Shown: positions 15,198 to 34,038 of the stretch, in pieces
Position numbering within the stretch: the stretch's first letter is position 1
How the letters are laid out: each line of letters begins with the position of its first letter
From: Planctomycetes bacterium RIFCSPLOWO2_12_FULL_50_35
GTDB taxonomy: Bacteria; Planctomycetota; Brocadiia; Brocadiales; Bathyanammoxibiaceae
Direction of reading: 5' to 3'
Length of the DNA: 36,129 nucleotides
Assembly: GCA_001828605.1 (NCBI GenBank)
Contig: MHZB01000065.1
Coordinates: forward strand, 1-36,129
The notes under the pieces: model-generated
Database searches by the model: none
What the model was told of the DNA's origin: nothing
Seen by the model: only the letters and a program-made list of their open reading frames with translations
Made by a program: the position numbers and the translations under genes

Positions 15198-15791
15198 AAC
15201 CCTCTGACCGGCACAGGAGTTTATTCATAAAGGGAGACCTCTGAAAAAGTATCTTTTTATGGAGTCCACCCTGAATCCCCTGAATCAAGTTCAGGGCCAT
15301 GTCGCTGGGAGACACACCCCCGTCCCCTCTTTTAAGAGGGGAGAAAGGGGTGTGTATTAAATGCCCATTGACACGGTCAATGGACTCCAAAATTTTGCAT
15401 TCTTCAGAGCTCTCAAAGGATATTACAAGACATTCCCCCACTAATTCAACAACATTATGCCTTTTGTGGAGTCCATTGACTGTGTCGCCGGGTCAGACTG
15501 TAGGGGCGTATTGCCATACGCCCCTACAGGGATGTAACAAACGCCGTCTTTGGTAGTCAATGACCTTTACGGTCGTTGACCTGTAGGGGCGACCCGCCGG
15601 GTCGCCCCTACTTTAAATATCAGAAGCAAGACGTCCGTTACGGAGGCTTCGACGGTGAGCTCAGCCGAACCGAACGGACGCTACACAAAACTACTCCCTC
15701 CCCATTCCCCCCCGCCAAAGGGGAAGGCGGTAAACAAAAACATCTCGGCCACTGATGCGTTCTCCCGCCCGAACCGCCAATCTCTTTATTC
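15198..15791. other. Repeat-filled intergenic region (propeller B to DUF1573 gene)
   Basis: About 600 bases between divergent genes with no credible coding frame. Beyond the MITE-like element listed separately, it holds a CTGTAGGGGCGTAT/ATACGCCCCTACAG palindrome (15498-15529), GTCAATGACC/GGTCGTTGAC (15556-15580), a GTAGGGGCGACCC/GGGTCGCCCCTAC palindrome (15583-15611), and a CTTCGACGGTGAGC-type repeat (about 15645-15685). The composition matches the other intergenic repeat islands. Confidence 0.7.
15234..15414. repeat. MITE-like element copy 4 with a different interior
   Basis: The left end GAGACCTCTGAAAAAG (15234-15249) and the right end TCTTCAGAGCTCT (to about 15413) are inverted copies of the family termini. 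AAAGG flanks both sides (15229-15233 and 15415-15419). The interior lacks the GTCTGG/GCGTCC hairpins. It carries CACACCCC..CCCCTCTT paired with AAGAGGGG..GGGGTGTG (15313-15354) and CCATTGAC/GTCAATGG (15365-15383). Confidence 0.55.
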
Positions 15792-25626: not shown

Positions 25627-25782
25627 GTGGTAAGGGGCAATTCATGAATTGCCCCTACCACTGCCCAACGTAGCAGCCTGCAGGGGCGTATTGCAATACG
25701 CCCCTGCAAAAACTCAGAATAACATTGAGGCCTTTCCAGGGCCTTAGAACAGACCTAAATGCTGGAGGTACGGATTGAAGAC
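25627..25782. repeat. Two GGGGC-shell palindromes between glgC and the heme lipoproteins
   Basis: AGGGGCAATTCA/TGAATTGCCCCT (25633-25656) and a perfect 28-base palindrome GCAGGGGCGTATTG/CAATACGCCCCTGC (25680-25707). They lie between two plus-strand genes, so they may end the glgC transcript or cap the next one. Confidence 0.65.
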
Positions 25783-26277
25783 ATGAAACGGCGCCTTTTC
25801 CCGACATTGGCTCTATTATGCCTGCTGATGTGCCTCACGTCCTGCGACGTATCCTCCTACTACTCCTCTTCCTCGAAGGAGGAGACTGAAACGGAACAGG
25901 GAGAGGTGGACACGCCTAAAGAGACACAAGTCTCAGAGGGGGCAACCGACCAGGAACTGAAGGATGCCATGAAGTCGTCCGCAAAATACATGAAGAACCT
26001 GGAGTCTGCAATGGAATTCGGCAATTGGTCTTCCGCAAGGGCCTCGGCCAAAAAACTGGAAGACCTCATAGGTCAACGCTGTGTAAACCTTTACATAAAG
26101 ACCTACGGGTCCGCACCGGAAGAATTCGTCAACATAAGCCAGGACTTCTATACGCACGTACTCAAACTCCTCATAGCGGAGAAATACAACAAATACGACC
26201 TGGCCAGAACCCACTTCGAAGACATGAAGGCGGACTGTGAATACTGTCACAGCAAGTTCAAAAAAGAGAAAGGATAA
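25783..26277 (+). CDS. Class II cytochrome c-like lipoprotein, paralog 1
   Basis: A predicted exported 164-residue lipoprotein: hydrophobic signal with lipobox LTSC (Cys21), an acidic linker to about residue 57, then a helical domain ending in one heme c site CEYCH at 152-156. A C-terminal heme in a four-helix domain is the layout of class II cytochromes (c', c556). Met63 in LKDAM is conserved in all three neighbours and could be the sixth heme ligand. Cys100 in GQRCVNLY is also shared and is not expected for the class. The start at 25783 gives a clean signal peptide; the ATG at 25759 adds eight residues. Function as a periplasmic electron carrier or sensor is inferred. Confidence 0.78.
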   Translation: MKRRLFPTLALLCLLMCLTSCDVSSYYSSSSKEETETEQGEVDTPKETQVSEGATDQELKDAMKSSAKYMKNLESAMEFGNWSSARASAKKLEDLIGQRCVNLYIKTYGSAPEEFVNISQDFYTHVLKLLIAEKYNKYDLARTHFEDMKADCEYCHSKFKKEKG

Positions 26278-26286
26278 CGTGAAAAA

Positions 26287-26877
26287 GTGAGGGGCATCCT
26301 TCCTGCGGGCATAATTCTATTTCTTATCATCTTTGTCTATACACTCTCATGCGATAGGACTAAGGAGGAAGTCACGCAGAAGAAAAAAGAGATACCGAAA
26401 GAACAGGTGACTGCAAAGAAACAGGAGATTGCAGAACCCTCGGTTAAAGAAAAGGAACCGCCAGGAAAACCCGTACCTGAAGAACCGCCAAAACCCGTGG
26501 AAGAAGTGGTAACCATACTTAAAGACAGGGAGCAACTCAAGACTGTGATGGAAGCGGCAGAGCTTAATATGATTAAATTAAAAGACGCCCTGAGATTTGA
26601 GAACTGGGATGCGTCGAGACAGGCCGCGACCCGATTAGAGGAGCTCATAGGCAATTACTGTATCAATTTGTACCTGAAAATGAATCCCACCGTGTCGGAA
26701 GAGTTCGTAATCATCAGCCAGCGGTTCTACAACTCGTTATTCAACATCCTTATAGCGGAGATCTCAAACAACTTCGATGCGGCCTGGACCCAATATGTGC
26801 AGATGAAGGCCGATTGCGGCGAATGCCACAGCAAGTTCAGAAAGGAGGGTGGGGCTGTCACCCCTATGAAAAAATGA
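26287..26877 (+). CDS. Class II cytochrome c-like lipoprotein, paralog 2
   Basis: This 196-residue paralog starts at a GTG nine bases after the previous stop. Its hydrophobic signal ends in LSC (Cys22), followed by a long Lys/Glu/Pro-rich linker (about 24-78). The heme domain has Met88 in LKTVM, the shared Cys125 in GNYCINLY and a heme site CGECH at 177-181, 15 residues from the C-terminus. The linker is longer than in paralog 1, as if the domain must reach further from the membrane. The three genes are closely packed and co-transcribed. The redox partner cannot be identified from the window. Confidence 0.78.
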   Translation: MRGILPAGIILFLIIFVYTLSCDRTKEEVTQKKKEIPKEQVTAKKQEIAEPSVKEKEPPGKPVPEEPPKPVEEVVTILKDREQLKTVMEAAELNMIKLKDALRFENWDASRQAATRLEELIGNYCINLYLKMNPTVSEEFVIISQRFYNSLFNILIAEISNNFDAAWTQYVQMKADCGECHSKFRKEGGAVTPMKK

Positions 26878-27437
26878 GCAAAGCACTCTACCTTTGCCTG
26901 ATACTGCTGCTCGTCTCTGTAAATTTAATATCCTGCAGAAAAAAAGAACCTGAGGAGCAGCAGGTTGTACTGAAAGAGGAAGAGAAAGAATTCTTTAAAG
27001 AGGAAATACCCCCGCTTGAAGAGTGGGCAACGCAGGAGTGGGAAGAGAGGGAGGTAACGGAGGCGGAGCCGCCCATAGAGCTTGAAACCCCCGGAGGTCT
27101 CAAAGAGGCCATGGCCTCCACTTCCCGCGCCGTGAGAGAGCTTAGCAGAAGCGTGGAAAAAGACGACTGGGAGGAAATAAAAAATTCCGGGAGAAAGGTA
27201 GAAGACCTGATAGCCGGACGTTGCGTCACTCTATACTTCAAACAACACCCTTCAGGCGTACCCACGGACTTTATCGTCATAGGCGACAGATTCAGAAACT
27301 CCATACAGGCCCTCGTCAGGGAGGCACAGGCGGGCCGCGGCGACCTGGTGCGCGACGAATTCGGCAAGGTAAAGGCAACCTGCAAGGACTGCCACAAGCT
27401 CTTCAAAAAAGATGGTGGGGAGGAACCTCTGCCCTAA
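26874..27437 (+). CDS. Class II cytochrome c-like lipoprotein, paralog 3
   Basis: The ATG at 26874 overlaps the stop of paralog 2 in ATGA, so translation is coupled; the in-frame ATG at 26814 lies inside paralog 2 and is rejected. The 187-residue product has a signal with lipobox LISC (Cys21), a very acidic linker (about 24-70), Met80 in LKEAM, Cys117 in AGRCVTLY and a C-terminal heme site CKDCH at 170-174. It is the most divergent of the three in its first helix. The terminator at 27457 closes the cluster. Confidence 0.78.
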   Translation: MSKALYLCLILLLVSVNLISCRKKEPEEQQVVLKEEEKEFFKEEIPPLEEWATQEWEEREVTEAEPPIELETPGGLKEAMASTSRAVRELSRSVEKDDWEEIKNSGRKVEDLIAGRCVTLYFKQHPSGVPTDFIVIGDRFRNSIQALVREAQAGRGDLVRDEFGKVKATCKDCHKLFKKDGGEEPLP

Positions 27438-27499: not shown

Positions 27500-27592
27500 T
27501 CCGCCTAAGGCGGACAATGTACCATCTATCCCAGTTCCCACTCCTGAGAAACGCTTGTTACGCCCCCGTAGGGGCGTATGGCTATACGCCCC
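27500..27592. repeat. Short palindromes upstream of selC
   Basis: TCCGCCTAAGGCGGA (about 27501-27515) and a GGGGCGTAT/ATACGCCCC palindrome (27571-27592) are present. The sequence between the terminator and the tRNA holds no credible gene. Confidence 0.5.
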
Positions 27593-27676
27593 ACAATATA
27601 CCCTGGACACGTAGACACGCAGGGTGCGTTTTAACGCACCAAGTCCACCCTACCAACCGCATCGACAGAGAAAAAA

Positions 27677-27773
27677 TGGCGGGAACGTGTGGGAGTCGAA
27701 CCCACCCATCCGCTTCTTAGGCGGATAAACCGGATTTGAAGTCCGTCAGGGCCACCGGGCCCCATCCATTCCC
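27677..27773 (-). tRNA. selC: tRNA-Sec (anticodon TCA)
   Basis: A 97-base selenocysteine tRNA including an encoded CCA. It shows a long acceptor stem (5' GGGAATGG; seven pairs and an eighth G-A mismatch), a six-pair D stem with a four-base loop, and anticodon loop CTTCAAA with TCA at 27737-27739. A long variable arm (ATCCGC/GCGGAT with a seven-base loop), a T arm of five pairs with loop TTCGACT, and G before CCA complete it. The overall layout matches bacterial tRNASec and differs from canonical tRNAs. The outermost anticodon-stem pair also looks mismatched. It implies that selenoproteins exist in this genome; none is evident in the window. Confidence 0.93.
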
Positions 27774-29627: not shown

Positions 29628-29882
29628 CGATAACACACCTCTAAGAAGCATTTGTTACATAACTGTAGGGGCGTATTGCAATACGCCCCTGCAGTTTGTA
29701 TTCCATTGACTGCATCAATGGGTTTTTCCAGAGACATCCGCCTTAGGCGGACTGGATTCCATGAAAAGACACCTTTACAAAAACCTCATACAATAAAAAA
29801 GGCCCTGTAGAGATGGTTAACCACTCCACAAGACCGAGATAAAGAAAAACCCTTTAAGTCTGCAACAACGGTCACATCAGTA
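29628..29882. other. Intergenic repeats between DUF4340 gene and htrA
   Basis: It contains a CTGTAGGGGCGTATTG/CAATACGCCCCTGCAG palindrome (29663-29694), a CCATTGAC/TCAATGG pair (about 29703-29721), and TCCGCC/GGCGGA (about 29737-29751). No coding sequence is seen. Confidence 0.55.
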
Positions 29883-32510
29883 TCAATGCCCTCCCTTCGG
29901 GGCAGATTCGTTACTGCCGTGGCCACCGCCACTGCCGCTTCCATGGCCGCCACCGTAGTCTGTGCCGTGACCGCCACCAGAACCACCTCCATGGCCACCG
30001 CCGTAGCTGTCTCCGTGACCGCCTTCATAGCCGCCCATACCATGACCACCGCCATAATCACCGCCATGACCGCCGCCGTAGCTGTCTCCGTGACCGCCTT
30101 CATAGCCGCCCATACCGTGGCCACCGCCATAATCACCCCCATGACCGCCGCCGTAGCTGCCTCCGTGGCCGCCATATCCACCGGTGCCGTGACCGCCTCC
30201 GTAGTCGCCCGGATCGCCGTAGCTGCCGCCCATGGACGGCATAGGCGGTTTGAGGTCCACAATAGCCTGCCCCTTTATCAGTTTCTGAACATCCGCATTA
30301 CTTAAGACAAAAATAAAGTCCGAGTTACTTATCTTTGCAAAATAGGGCTGCTCGGCGGCAGGCTGGCTCATTACCAATACCTTTTCGCCCTTGTTGTCAT
30401 TCAGTGTGATTGTTGCCTGGGGTTTATCCAGACCGTATTTTGCGAGGTCGGTTGATTTGTATTCGGCAATGGACTCGGCCTTCAGATTCTTCAGGCTGTA
30501 GAGGACTGCGTCTATCTCCTTGCTGAGCACCTCCTTCTTTTCCGGCTTGAGCATCTCCCATACCTCGGCCTTCTTTTCATAAAGCGTCTCTTTTTCCGGG
30601 AAATTCAGGTGCACTCTACTAACGGTATCGGAGTCAAACTGCGCGACAACCTTGGACGTCAAGTCTCCCTCCAGGTATCTGATATCCGTCCAGCTCATGT
30701 GAAATACAAGGTTGCCGCCGTCTATTATGGCGTAAGAGTCCACATTTTGACCTTCTTTTACCCTGTTCCCCACAAGGACGGTCTTGCTGATCATTTCAGC
30801 CTTCTTGTCGCTCTTTTCGGACAGGAAGATGTCTTCCCCCTTTCCCTCCGGAGCTTCTTCCTTTTCTTCTACATATACCTCTTCTTCGTAGGTAATGGTG
30901 GCCTTTATCCTTGGGTTGTCCAGCCCATACTGTGCAAGGTCCTTAGGTGACTCGACCTCGCAGTTCTCCGCCTTCAGGAAAGAGAGTGACCACACAATGT
31001 TATTTATCATCTCCTCGTCGGTATCTATCACCATCGGCTCGCTCAGCATCCATTTCTCGGTCGCACCCTTCTCCCTGCCGGCCACGAAACGCCGGTCCTT
31101 TCTGTCTATCACCAATTTTCTCGCATTATCCCTGTTAAATTCCAGCATCAGCCTGTCACGGAAGGTCAGGTAACCCCGGGTGGCCGGCTCGTAGAAATTG
31201 TCGGCCTTCACGGAGAACACAGGCTCCTCACCCGCACGCTTCACGTAACACAGGGCGCCCCTCTTGTCTTTACTGCCCACCTGCAGTCTTACGGGTTCTT
31301 TATCCTTGACGGCAATGGTTATCTCTGCGGCGGGTTCTTTAAGCCCGTAGGCGCTGAGGTCTGCCGGCTTATCATCGACAAAGTTCTGTATCTCCATATC
31401 CTTTATTGCGTCAAGAAAGCTCTTGAAGGCGTCCCTGTCGGCAAGCACCTCTACAGGCTTTTTAATCATATAGTCGTACTGCACCGTCTTCTCAATCTCT
31501 ATTTCCTGGTCCTTGGTCTTTATCGCACATTTTGTCACGTAAAGCGAGTCTACTTCCCTGGCCAGTTTTTTGGCCCTGAGTTCGTTGGGGTTCTTCTTAA
31601 AGAGCCCTGCGGTAGTGTCCTTAAGGAAGAATACGGCAGGGCCCTCACGGCGCTTGGCGTAGACCTTATTGTCGCGGGTATGACCGAGCAAAACGCCCTG
31701 TGATACGCCCTTCTGGTAGGCAACTGCGGTAATCTGGGGGTTGTCCAGGCCAAACGTGGAGAGGTCTTTCGGCTCATCGGTTATAAAGTCGTTCTTGTCT
31801 ACCACGAGCGCATTTAGATTATAGACGACCTGCATTATCTTTTCGTTATCGCCGCTGTCGGCTATGGGCTGCGTAACCCTCCAGTCAACTCCGCTCCTGG
31901 CGCATTCCACCACCTCGCCGGAGGCATATTTCAGCTCAATCCTGTCTATGGCGTTGGGGTCTATCTCCAGTACGTTTTTGCTCCGCAGTTCGCTAAGCGT
32001 TTTGGCAAGTCTCTCCAGAAGCGTACCGGATACCAGAAGTACATCCTTCGAACCTTCCAGCTTAATGTAGACCTCGTTGCCGCCCGCCCTCTTCTCGCCC
32101 ACGGAGAACGTGTGCTTGTCGTCGGGGCCCGTCCAATAAGAGAACACGATCTTCGGCTTCTCAAGTCCGTAGCCTGCCAGGTCGGTCCCCTCGCCGCCGA
32201 CTTCAACAGTACCTATCTTTTTAAGGAATTCCATCTCGGTAAGGATGCTGGTAACCTCTGCCAGGTCGGCCTTCAGCTCAAGGGGTTTTCTCATGGCCCA
32301 GTCACCCTGCTCCAGCTTCTCCATTACAAACAGGCCGTCTTCCCTGTTTATCTCGATCTTTCTGACCCTGTTAGACTCGTAACCCGGAAATACCTGTTTG
32401 GCTTGAAGCTGCCATTCATCGGTAGTAAGTTTATTCTTCTCGTAGAATTGGACAAACAGCGCAAGCACGGCAACTATACCCAGGAGTATTATGGTGGTTT
32501 TTAGTCTCAT
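29883..32510 (-). CDS. DUF4340 membrane-anchored protein with a Gly/His-rich C-terminal tail
   Basis: An 875-residue protein. The N-terminal segment LKTTIILLGIVAVLALFVQFY is a membrane anchor, and the rest faces the periplasm. About five DUF4340-type units follow, each beginning with DL--YGL--P (for example DLSTFGLDNPQITAV, DLAKYGLDKPQATIT) and continuing with V-G----G--YA. The last 115 residues are about half Gly with 13 His, Tyr and Asp, in the pattern YGGGHGGDYGGGHGMGGYEGGHG. DUF4340 proteins often sit next to gliding-type ABC genes, as here, but their role is unknown. The ATG at 32510 starts 10 bases after the GldG-like stop. The tail could bind metal or self-associate; that is inference. 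Confidence 0.82.
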   Translation of the reverse strand: MRLKTTIILLGIVAVLALFVQFYEKNKLTTDEWQLQAKQVFPGYESNRVRKIEINREDGLFVMEKLEQGDWAMRKPLELKADLAEVTSILTEMEFLKKIGTVEVGGEGTDLAGYGLEKPKIVFSYWTGPDDKHTFSVGEKRAGGNEVYIKLEGSKDVLLVSGTLLERLAKTLSELRSKNVLEIDPNAIDRIELKYASGEVVECARSGVDWRVTQPIADSGDNEKIMQVVYNLNALVVDKNDFITDEPKDLSTFGLDNPQITAVAYQKGVSQGVLLGHTRDNKVYAKRREGPAVFFLKDTTAGLFKKNPNELRAKKLAREVDSLYVTKCAIKTKDQEIEIEKTVQYDYMIKKPVEVLADRDAFKSFLDAIKDMEIQNFVDDKPADLSAYGLKEPAAEITIAVKDKEPVRLQVGSKDKRGALCYVKRAGEEPVFSVKADNFYEPATRGYLTFRDRLMLEFNRDNARKLVIDRKDRRFVAGREKGATEKWMLSEPMVIDTDEEMINNIVWSLSFLKAENCEVESPKDLAQYGLDNPRIKATITYEEEVYVEEKEEAPEGKGEDIFLSEKSDKKAEMISKTVLVGNRVKEGQNVDSYAIIDGGNLVFHMSWTDIRYLEGDLTSKVVAQFDSDTVSRVHLNFPEKETLYEKKAEVWEMLKPEKKEVLSKEIDAVLYSLKNLKAESIAEYKSTDLAKYGLDKPQATITLNDNKGEKVLVMSQPAAEQPYFAKISNSDFIFVLSNADVQKLIKGQAIVDLKPPMPSMGGSYGDPGDYGGGHGTGGYGGHGGSYGGGHGGDYGGGHGMGGYEGGHGDSYGGGHGGDYGGGHGMGGYEGGHGDSYGGGHGGGSGGGHGTDYGGGHGSGSGGGHGSNESAPKGGH
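29905..30240 (-). repeat. 75-bp tandem repeat encoding the Gly/His-rich tail
   Basis: Copies of CCGTAGCTGTCTCCGTGACC begin at 30001 and 30076, and a diverged one at 30151. The period is 75 bases, or 25 residues of DYGGGHGMGGYEGGHGDSY-type sequence. The two full copies differ at only a few bases, so copy number may vary between strains. Confidence 0.8.
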
Positions 32511-32520
32511 ATTCTCTCTG

Positions 32521-34038
32521 TTACCTCCTCCTCTTCCACCACACAAATGTGCCGGTCAGCAGTCCGAGTCCGGGGATTACGGCCACGGAGAGCCAGTATA
32601 TAAGCTTCATCTGCTCAGGGGCTACGTTTGCGCGCCTCACGTCGGGCGGTTTCGCAGATATACCCAGCTTGGTCTCTTTCTGGGTGAGCCAGTTTATGGA
32701 ATTCAAAAAGATGTCGTGGTTGCCCGGGTTCGGGGAATACTCGTTAGCGACAAAGTCAACGTCGCCGAAGACCGCAAGGCGCAGGCCCTCTACGGACGAT
32801 TCCTTGGGGAAAGAGCCATGGGCGACGGCCGCCTGTGCGGCGGTGTCCACCGGTTCGACCGTTGCGGCAATCGCTATGGGGCCCGGAATGTCCTTGTCCT
32901 GAGTGAATTCGGGTTTCTTGTTCGCAATCCCTATCTCCGTCTCGCCCCAACTGTTATCCGGACCCATCGCCAGGCTCTTGGTCTGATACGGCCTGTCGTT
33001 GGTAGGGGGAATACCCTCTACCGGGCATGCGCCAAAGAACACGCTGTTTATGGACTTCATGTCCTGCGTTATCCTGTGCTCCGGATACCTTTCCTGATTG
33101 ACGTATATCTCCGCAACCGTCTGCAGGCCGAAGAAAGGCAGTTGTACCCTGTTGTAGACCACGGCGTCGGTCCTTACGTTTATATTGTATTCTTTGAGTA
33201 ACTCCTCAAGCCCCGTCCTGGTATAGGGACCAAAGGCCGGCTCCAGACACACGAGGAGTTTACCTTTTTTATTGTCTACGTAGTTGCGCATAAGCGCTAT
33301 TTCCTCGGAACCGAACGGTTTTGTAGGACCGGCGATTATCAAGACGTCGCAGTCCGCCGGTACCTCTTTTCTGGTCATAAGGTCAAGAGGCACGACGTTG
33401 AAGTTATCCCTCTTCAGCGCCGTAATAATGTCCGAAAAACCCTGCCGGTCGTAGTCCTCGAGACCGCGTTCCCCGTGACCCGTAGTGATGTATATAGAGG
33501 TCTGCTTTTCTTCAGTAACGCTCAGTATTGCGGCCGTAAAGACCTCCTCGCCCTTAAACTTAAACGGGAATTCCTTTTCTATCACCTCGGCCTGGCCCAC
33601 GTGTTTTGCCTTGCTGCCGCACTCAACTATGACGGTATTGATCTGTATGTTCTCGGCCTTTATCCGCTCGGTAAGCTCCCTCATTTTGGTGGGATTACGT
33701 ATGGGGTCTACGTGCACCAGGCTGATCTTATCTGATTGATACTCGTACTCCCGAAGGATGTCCATAATCCCGTCAAAGAACATCTCACCTTCGTTGAAGA
33801 GCACGGTCACCGTTACGGGCGCCTGAAGGCCCTTTAAGATGTTTTTGGTCTTGTCGGATATGGAGAATCTGCCGCTGGAGGTGAAATCAAAACGCACATA
33901 ATGTCTGGCGTTAATGTAGCTTACAAAGGCAAAAATACCGATGGCAATAAGGGTCATCAGCACCACGTTCGTACCTATGACCGCCTTTTTCCTGAACAGC
34001 CCGCTGACGTTAAAACGCCTGGATTTCTCTTTTTCCAA
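32521..34038 (-). CDS. GldG-like ABC transporter auxiliary protein
   Basis: A 505-residue protein with one N-terminal membrane segment (AVIGTNVVLMTLIAIGIFAFV) and one near the C-terminus (LIYWLSVAVIPGLGLLTGTFVWW). The central region resembles the ABC_transp_aux / GldG domain: VHVDPIRN, YITTGHGERGLEDYDRQGFS and LIIAGPTKPF. In Bacteroidota GldG works with GldF and GldA in gliding and secretion; elsewhere the partner genes are kept without motility. The TTG at 34038, seven bases after the permease stop and with AAGG nearby, is preferred. An open frame reaching 34281 lies inside the permease gene. Translation is coupled with the permease. Confidence 0.85.
   Translation of the reverse strand: MEKEKSRRFNVSGLFRKKAVIGTNVVLMTLIAIGIFAFVSYINARHYVRFDFTSSGRFSISDKTKNILKGLQAPVTVTVLFNEGEMFFDGIMDILREYEYQSDKISLVHVDPIRNPTKMRELTERIKAENIQINTVIVECGSKAKHVGQAEVIEKEFPFKFKGEEVFTAAILSVTEEKQTSIYITTGHGERGLEDYDRQGFSDIITALKRDNFNVVPLDLMTRKEVPADCDVLIIAGPTKPFGSEEIALMRNYVDNKKGKLLVCLEPAFGPYTRTGLEELLKEYNINVRTDAVVYNRVQLPFFGLQTVAEIYVNQERYPEHRITQDMKSINSVFFGACPVEGIPPTNDRPYQTKSLAMGPDNSWGETEIGIANKKPEFTQDKDIPGPIAIAATVEPVDTAAQAAVAHGSFPKESSVEGLRLAVFGDVDFVANEYSPNPGNHDIFLNSINWLTQKETKLGISAKPPDVRRANVAPEQMKLIYWLSVAVIPGLGLLTGTFVWWKRRR

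Follow-up and report, generated by a model that had tools for sequence, protein, structure and literature searches.

Predicted membrane-anchored class II cytochromes c with a conserved central cysteine in anammox bacteria

Three tandem genes in a 36,129-nucleotide stretch of planctomycete DNA (the window, meaning the whole stretch analyzed) encode what sequence and structural models indicate are membrane-anchored class II cytochromes c, each with an added central cysteine. This cysteine is a constant, defining trait of a family known to date from two anammox families, and the conserved unit is a pair, LP1 and LP3. We favor, with modest confidence, a role for these proteins as membrane-tethered monoheme electron carriers in which a Met would be the sixth heme ligand, the Cys would act as a pocket thiol or alternative ligand, and LP1 and LP3 would form the working pair. 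The LP1/LP3 family offers membrane-tethered candidates for the small electron-carrying cytochromes of anammox metabolism.

The 2.0-Mb genome (122 contigs) falls within Brocadiales, the order of Scalindua and Kuenenia, and encodes hydrazine synthase alpha; the host is therefore an anammox bacterium. The locus contains the following features:

25783–26277, plus strand: P0001 (LP1), predicted lipoprotein class II cytochrome c, 164 aa; M63, C100, CEYCH 152–156
26080–26082, plus strand: codon of the P0001 central Cys, C100, invariant in 29/29 representatives
26287–26877, plus strand: P0002, GTG start, putative divergent LP1-type duplicate, 196 aa; M88, C125, CGECH 177–181
26659–26661, plus strand: codon of the P0002 central Cys, C125, read from the sequence
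26874–27437, plus strand: P0003 (LP3), predicted lipoprotein class II cytochrome c, 187 aa; M80, C117, CKDCH 170–174
27222–27224, plus strand: codon of the P0003 central Cys, C117, read from the sequence

The most likely start of P0003 is ATG 26874 rather than the upstream TTG 26814; from this ATG, P0003 overlaps the stop of P0002 by four bases (ATGA), and the three genes probably form a single transcription unit. When P0001 was searched against the whole genome, P0002 and P0003 were recovered with E-values of 1.3e-28 and 1.7e-18, so their likeness reflects homology rather than chance. Two remoter relatives encoded on other contigs of the same genome (C27 and C64) have no lipobox; both retain a Cys in the corresponding region.

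All sequence features listed for the three proteins in the initial annotation were found. Each has a signal peptide and a lipobox cysteine (P0001, C21 in LTSC; P0002, C22 in TLSC; P0003, C21 in LISC), and so do almost all proteins of the Cys family. A Glu/Lys/Pro-rich linker of about 37, 61, and 53 residues, respectively, leads from the lipobox to helix A, where the LKxxM motif lies (LKDAM 59–63, LKTVM 84–88, and LKEAM 76–80). The central Cys stands in a C[VI][NT]LY context (CVNLY at C100, CINLY at C125, and CVTLY at C117), and a single CxxCH is located near the C terminus (152–156, 177–181, and 170–174). Beyond the lipid- and heme-attaching cysteines, each mature protein contains exactly one Cys.

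The four-helix bundle expected for these proteins was borne out by AlphaFold2 models of P0001 and P0003. The P0001 model (residues 50–164, pLDDT 90.1) has helices at fragment positions 7–30, 33–59, 64–85, and 89–110, and P0003 (pLDDT 87.3) has the same layout. Foldseek comparison with the PDB returned cytochromes c' as top matches (E about 2e-3, probability 1.00), with chain A of NaxLS also among the matches (TM-score up to 0.76). Against the Pfam model Cytochrom_C_2 (PF01322, cut-off 26.5 bits), P0003 scored 36.0, while P0001 (23.8) and P0002 (18.7) fell below the cut-off; with E ≤ 0.001 as the limit, the model matched 27 of the 29 family members. A weak match of P0001 to the Tll0287-like heme Cache domain (PF11845, E = 0.09) was also considered. 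That domain holds heme c with Cys/His ligation (PMC12889525) on a Cache fold with beta strands, whereas the P0001 and P0003 models are all-helical; the fold and the E-value rule this assignment out.

To define the family, a profile built from the three proteins, which had matches in 53 of 59 relatives, was followed by a 29-member profile run across 392 genomes of the phylum. Scores of at least 115 bits came solely from the window's own family and from Scalinduaceae; Brocadiaceae copies were weaker (up to 72 bits) and mostly single. L59, M63, L73, W82, I96, C100, Y104, F115, C152, C155, and H156 (P0001 numbering) are invariant in the 29 diverse members. The proposal that the central Cys is conserved in orthologs thus held in 29/29 representatives, an alignment picked partly by the Cys motif, and also in every member of its clade in a tree of all homologs, which is the fairer test: sequences with this type of Cys form one clade with no Cys-less sequence inside. 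The fork of the clade itself is weak (79/94), and the LP3 (98/94) and Scalindua (98/99) subclades are well supported. M63 is invariant in all 60 homologs, Cys-less ones included; the Brocadiaceae type and Scalindua paralogs have SPVVFTG or a similar sequence at the Cys site and keep the Met. Searching for the Cys motif as a DNA pattern yielded noise only.

The idea that the three proteins form a functional set with three specific reaches from the membrane is not supported by comparison with relatives. Of the nine genomes in the window's family, eight have adjacent LP1 and LP3 genes, and an intact third copy is present solely in the window's genome. Many Scalinduaceae genomes also have tandem copies, and many keep the pair. 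P0002 sits on a long branch inside the LP1 clade (0.99). In a sister genome (G008), a P0002 fragment with stop codons lies between LP1 and LP3 (tblastn E = 1e-12; 81% identity across 88 bases of DNA), and there may be a weaker trace in another genome, G002. P0002 thus appears to be a fast-diverging LP1-type duplicate, reduced to a remnant in G008, and the trio an accident of duplication; the pairs in relatives and the decay of P0002 rule out the trio as the conserved unit. Linker length ranges from about 21 to 63 residues across the family, a spread so wide that three specific reaches are not conserved.

We estimated where the central Cys and the helix A Met lie relative to the heme by counting from the helix boundaries of the model along the antiparallel helices. 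Starting from CxxCH (fragment positions 103–107), the heme level falls near position 69 in helix C, near 54 in helix B, and near 9–14 in helix A, a region that contains M63, C100, Y104, and F115. When each helix was scanned against Alcaligenes cytochrome c', the best offsets were +2, +5, +13, and +13, which pair M63 with Leu16 and C100 with Trp56. HHalign reproduced the C100 pairing but set M63 opposite Met19, a register also favored by the comparison with NaxL(S). The register of helix A is hence uncertain by one turn, and that of helix B is moderately supported. The heme of cytochrome c' has Leu16 above it; when this residue is mutated, NO is directed toward Met19, Pro55, or Trp56 (PMC5390784). 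Given these pocket residues and the pairing with Trp56, C100 probably lies in the distal heme pocket. Because the Met is invariant even in Cys-less homologs, its ligation would be independent of the Cys; Met is the likelier sixth ligand, with Cys as an added pocket thiol or alternative ligand.

Three known groups of cytochromes offer points of comparison. Alcaligenes xylosoxidans cytochrome c' (PF01322, PDB: 1e83) shares the four-helix bundle, the C-terminal CxxCH, and residues that line one distal pocket; in contrast, the window proteins are lipoproteins with a long linker, with Met for Leu near the iron and an invariant Cys where Alcaligenes has Trp56. The heme of cytochrome c556 is ligated by Met. 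This low-spin class II cytochrome (e.g., PDB: 1s05) resembles the window proteins in its helix A Met as likely sixth ligand, and the latter add the helix B Cys, a membrane anchor, and tandem genes.

The hemes of the anammox protein NaxLS have Cys ligation (His/Cys). Consistently, its Kuenenia form (Kusta0087/Kusta0088, PDB: 6r6m, 6r6n, and 6r6o), which has Cys32 in helix A of Kusta0087 and Cys101 in the adjacent class I cytochrome, is represented by PDB entries titled C32G/wt (6r6o) and C32M/C101M (6r6n), mutants that fit such ligation. NaxLS comes from the same order as the window proteins, its class II subunit shares their fold, and it too has a Cys near the heme, a placement that is predicted for the window proteins. 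However, NaxLS has a class I partner and is not a lipoprotein, whereas the window proteins have a lipobox and no class I cytochrome is present among the open reading frames listed beside P0001–P0003. The NaxLS class II subunit has its Cys in helix A, where the window proteins have Met; the Cys of the window proteins lies in helix B, so that the positions of the two cysteines do not correspond. A separate NaxLS-type pair is also present in the window's genome (contig C64); together with the helix that bears the Cys and the missing class I partner, this rules out membership in NaxLS. In that separate pair, the class I partner (L055:6287-6676) has Met (GKDKMPSY) at the site of the ligating Cys of Brocadiaceae (GKGKCP[SG]Y), and Scalinduaceae have NDKGCT[QK]C. 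A third cytochrome c'-like gene lies directly upstream of the NaxLS pair both in the window's genome (L055:5075-5584) and in Kuenenia (L054:299-862); in the helix B region, the Kuenenia version contains a Cys (INLCKIAL), and the version from the window's genome contains none.

Could the Cys rather than the Met be the sixth ligand, giving a very low-potential His/Cys heme as in NaxLS, with the Met packed alongside or taking over in another redox or NO-bound state? The Cys is invariant, helix counting places it level with the heme, the His/Cys heme of NaxLS with its mutated C32 and C101 (PDB: 6r6n, 6r6o) is a precedent in anammox, and the uncertain helix A register might place the Met off the iron. 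Yet the Met is invariant also where the Cys is absent, and the Cys pairs with Trp56 at the side of the pocket, not with residue 16 above the iron; we regard this arrangement as unlikely. A related scheme, in which the two residues compete for one iron and redox state or NO switches the ligand, we consider unlikely as well; if true, anammox bacteria would have a second way of using Cys at a heme, at a position unlike that of NaxLS.

The cytochrome c' fold and pocket, together with the status of NO as an anammox intermediate bound by NaxLS (PMC7438415), would also suit NO binding or sensing, with the Cys as a nitrosation or gating site. The invariant Met instead predicts a six-coordinate heme, and no effector or kinase is fused to these proteins, which makes NO binding or sensing very unlikely. 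A GAF/PAS kinase gene lies upstream; it and glgC are neighbors of the genes in same-family relatives but not at the Scalindua locus that was read, and a sensor coupled to this kinase is unsupported. Finally, one free Cys per window protein and the joint travel of the LP1 and LP3 genes might suggest a covalent pair, held by a disulfide that joins LP1 to LP3 or that forms within a dimer. We find this highly improbable, as a heme-level site within the bundle suits burial better than an interface, and the second Cys seen in many Scalindua members has no fixed partner.

Electron transfer is a plainer reading than the relay or sensor suggested initially; a point against it is that no functional partner is encoded beside P0001–P0003. 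We propose that a lipoprotein anchor would be followed by a flexible charged linker and a four-helix bundle, whose C-terminal CxxCH would hold a single heme c. The helix A Met and helix B Cys would both face this heme, Met as sixth ligand of a low-spin His/Met center like that of cytochrome c556, and Cys as a thiol in the pocket, or as an alternative ligand, by which the heme is tuned or gated. LP1 and LP3 would be the working unit, with P0002 a spare LP1 duplicate, and may link membrane complexes to soluble multiheme enzymes by electron transfer, presumably on the side where c-type hemes are attached to proteins. The invariant pocket Cys offers a target for studying NO handling, or the unusual potentials attained, by anammox cytochromes.

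Several further features surround the locus:

27677–27773, minus strand: tRNA-Sec, just downstream of the trio
29883–32546, minus strand: DUF4340 protein with a long Gly/His-rich repeat tail

The tail of the DUF4340 protein is coded by 24- and 75-base tandem repeats and possibly binds metal. A 24-base palindrome, AGGGGCGTATNGCNATACGCCCCT, occurs in four intergenic copies (window positions 15502–15525, 25682–25705, 27570–27593, and 29667–29690), when none is expected by chance; two of the four copies flank the trio.
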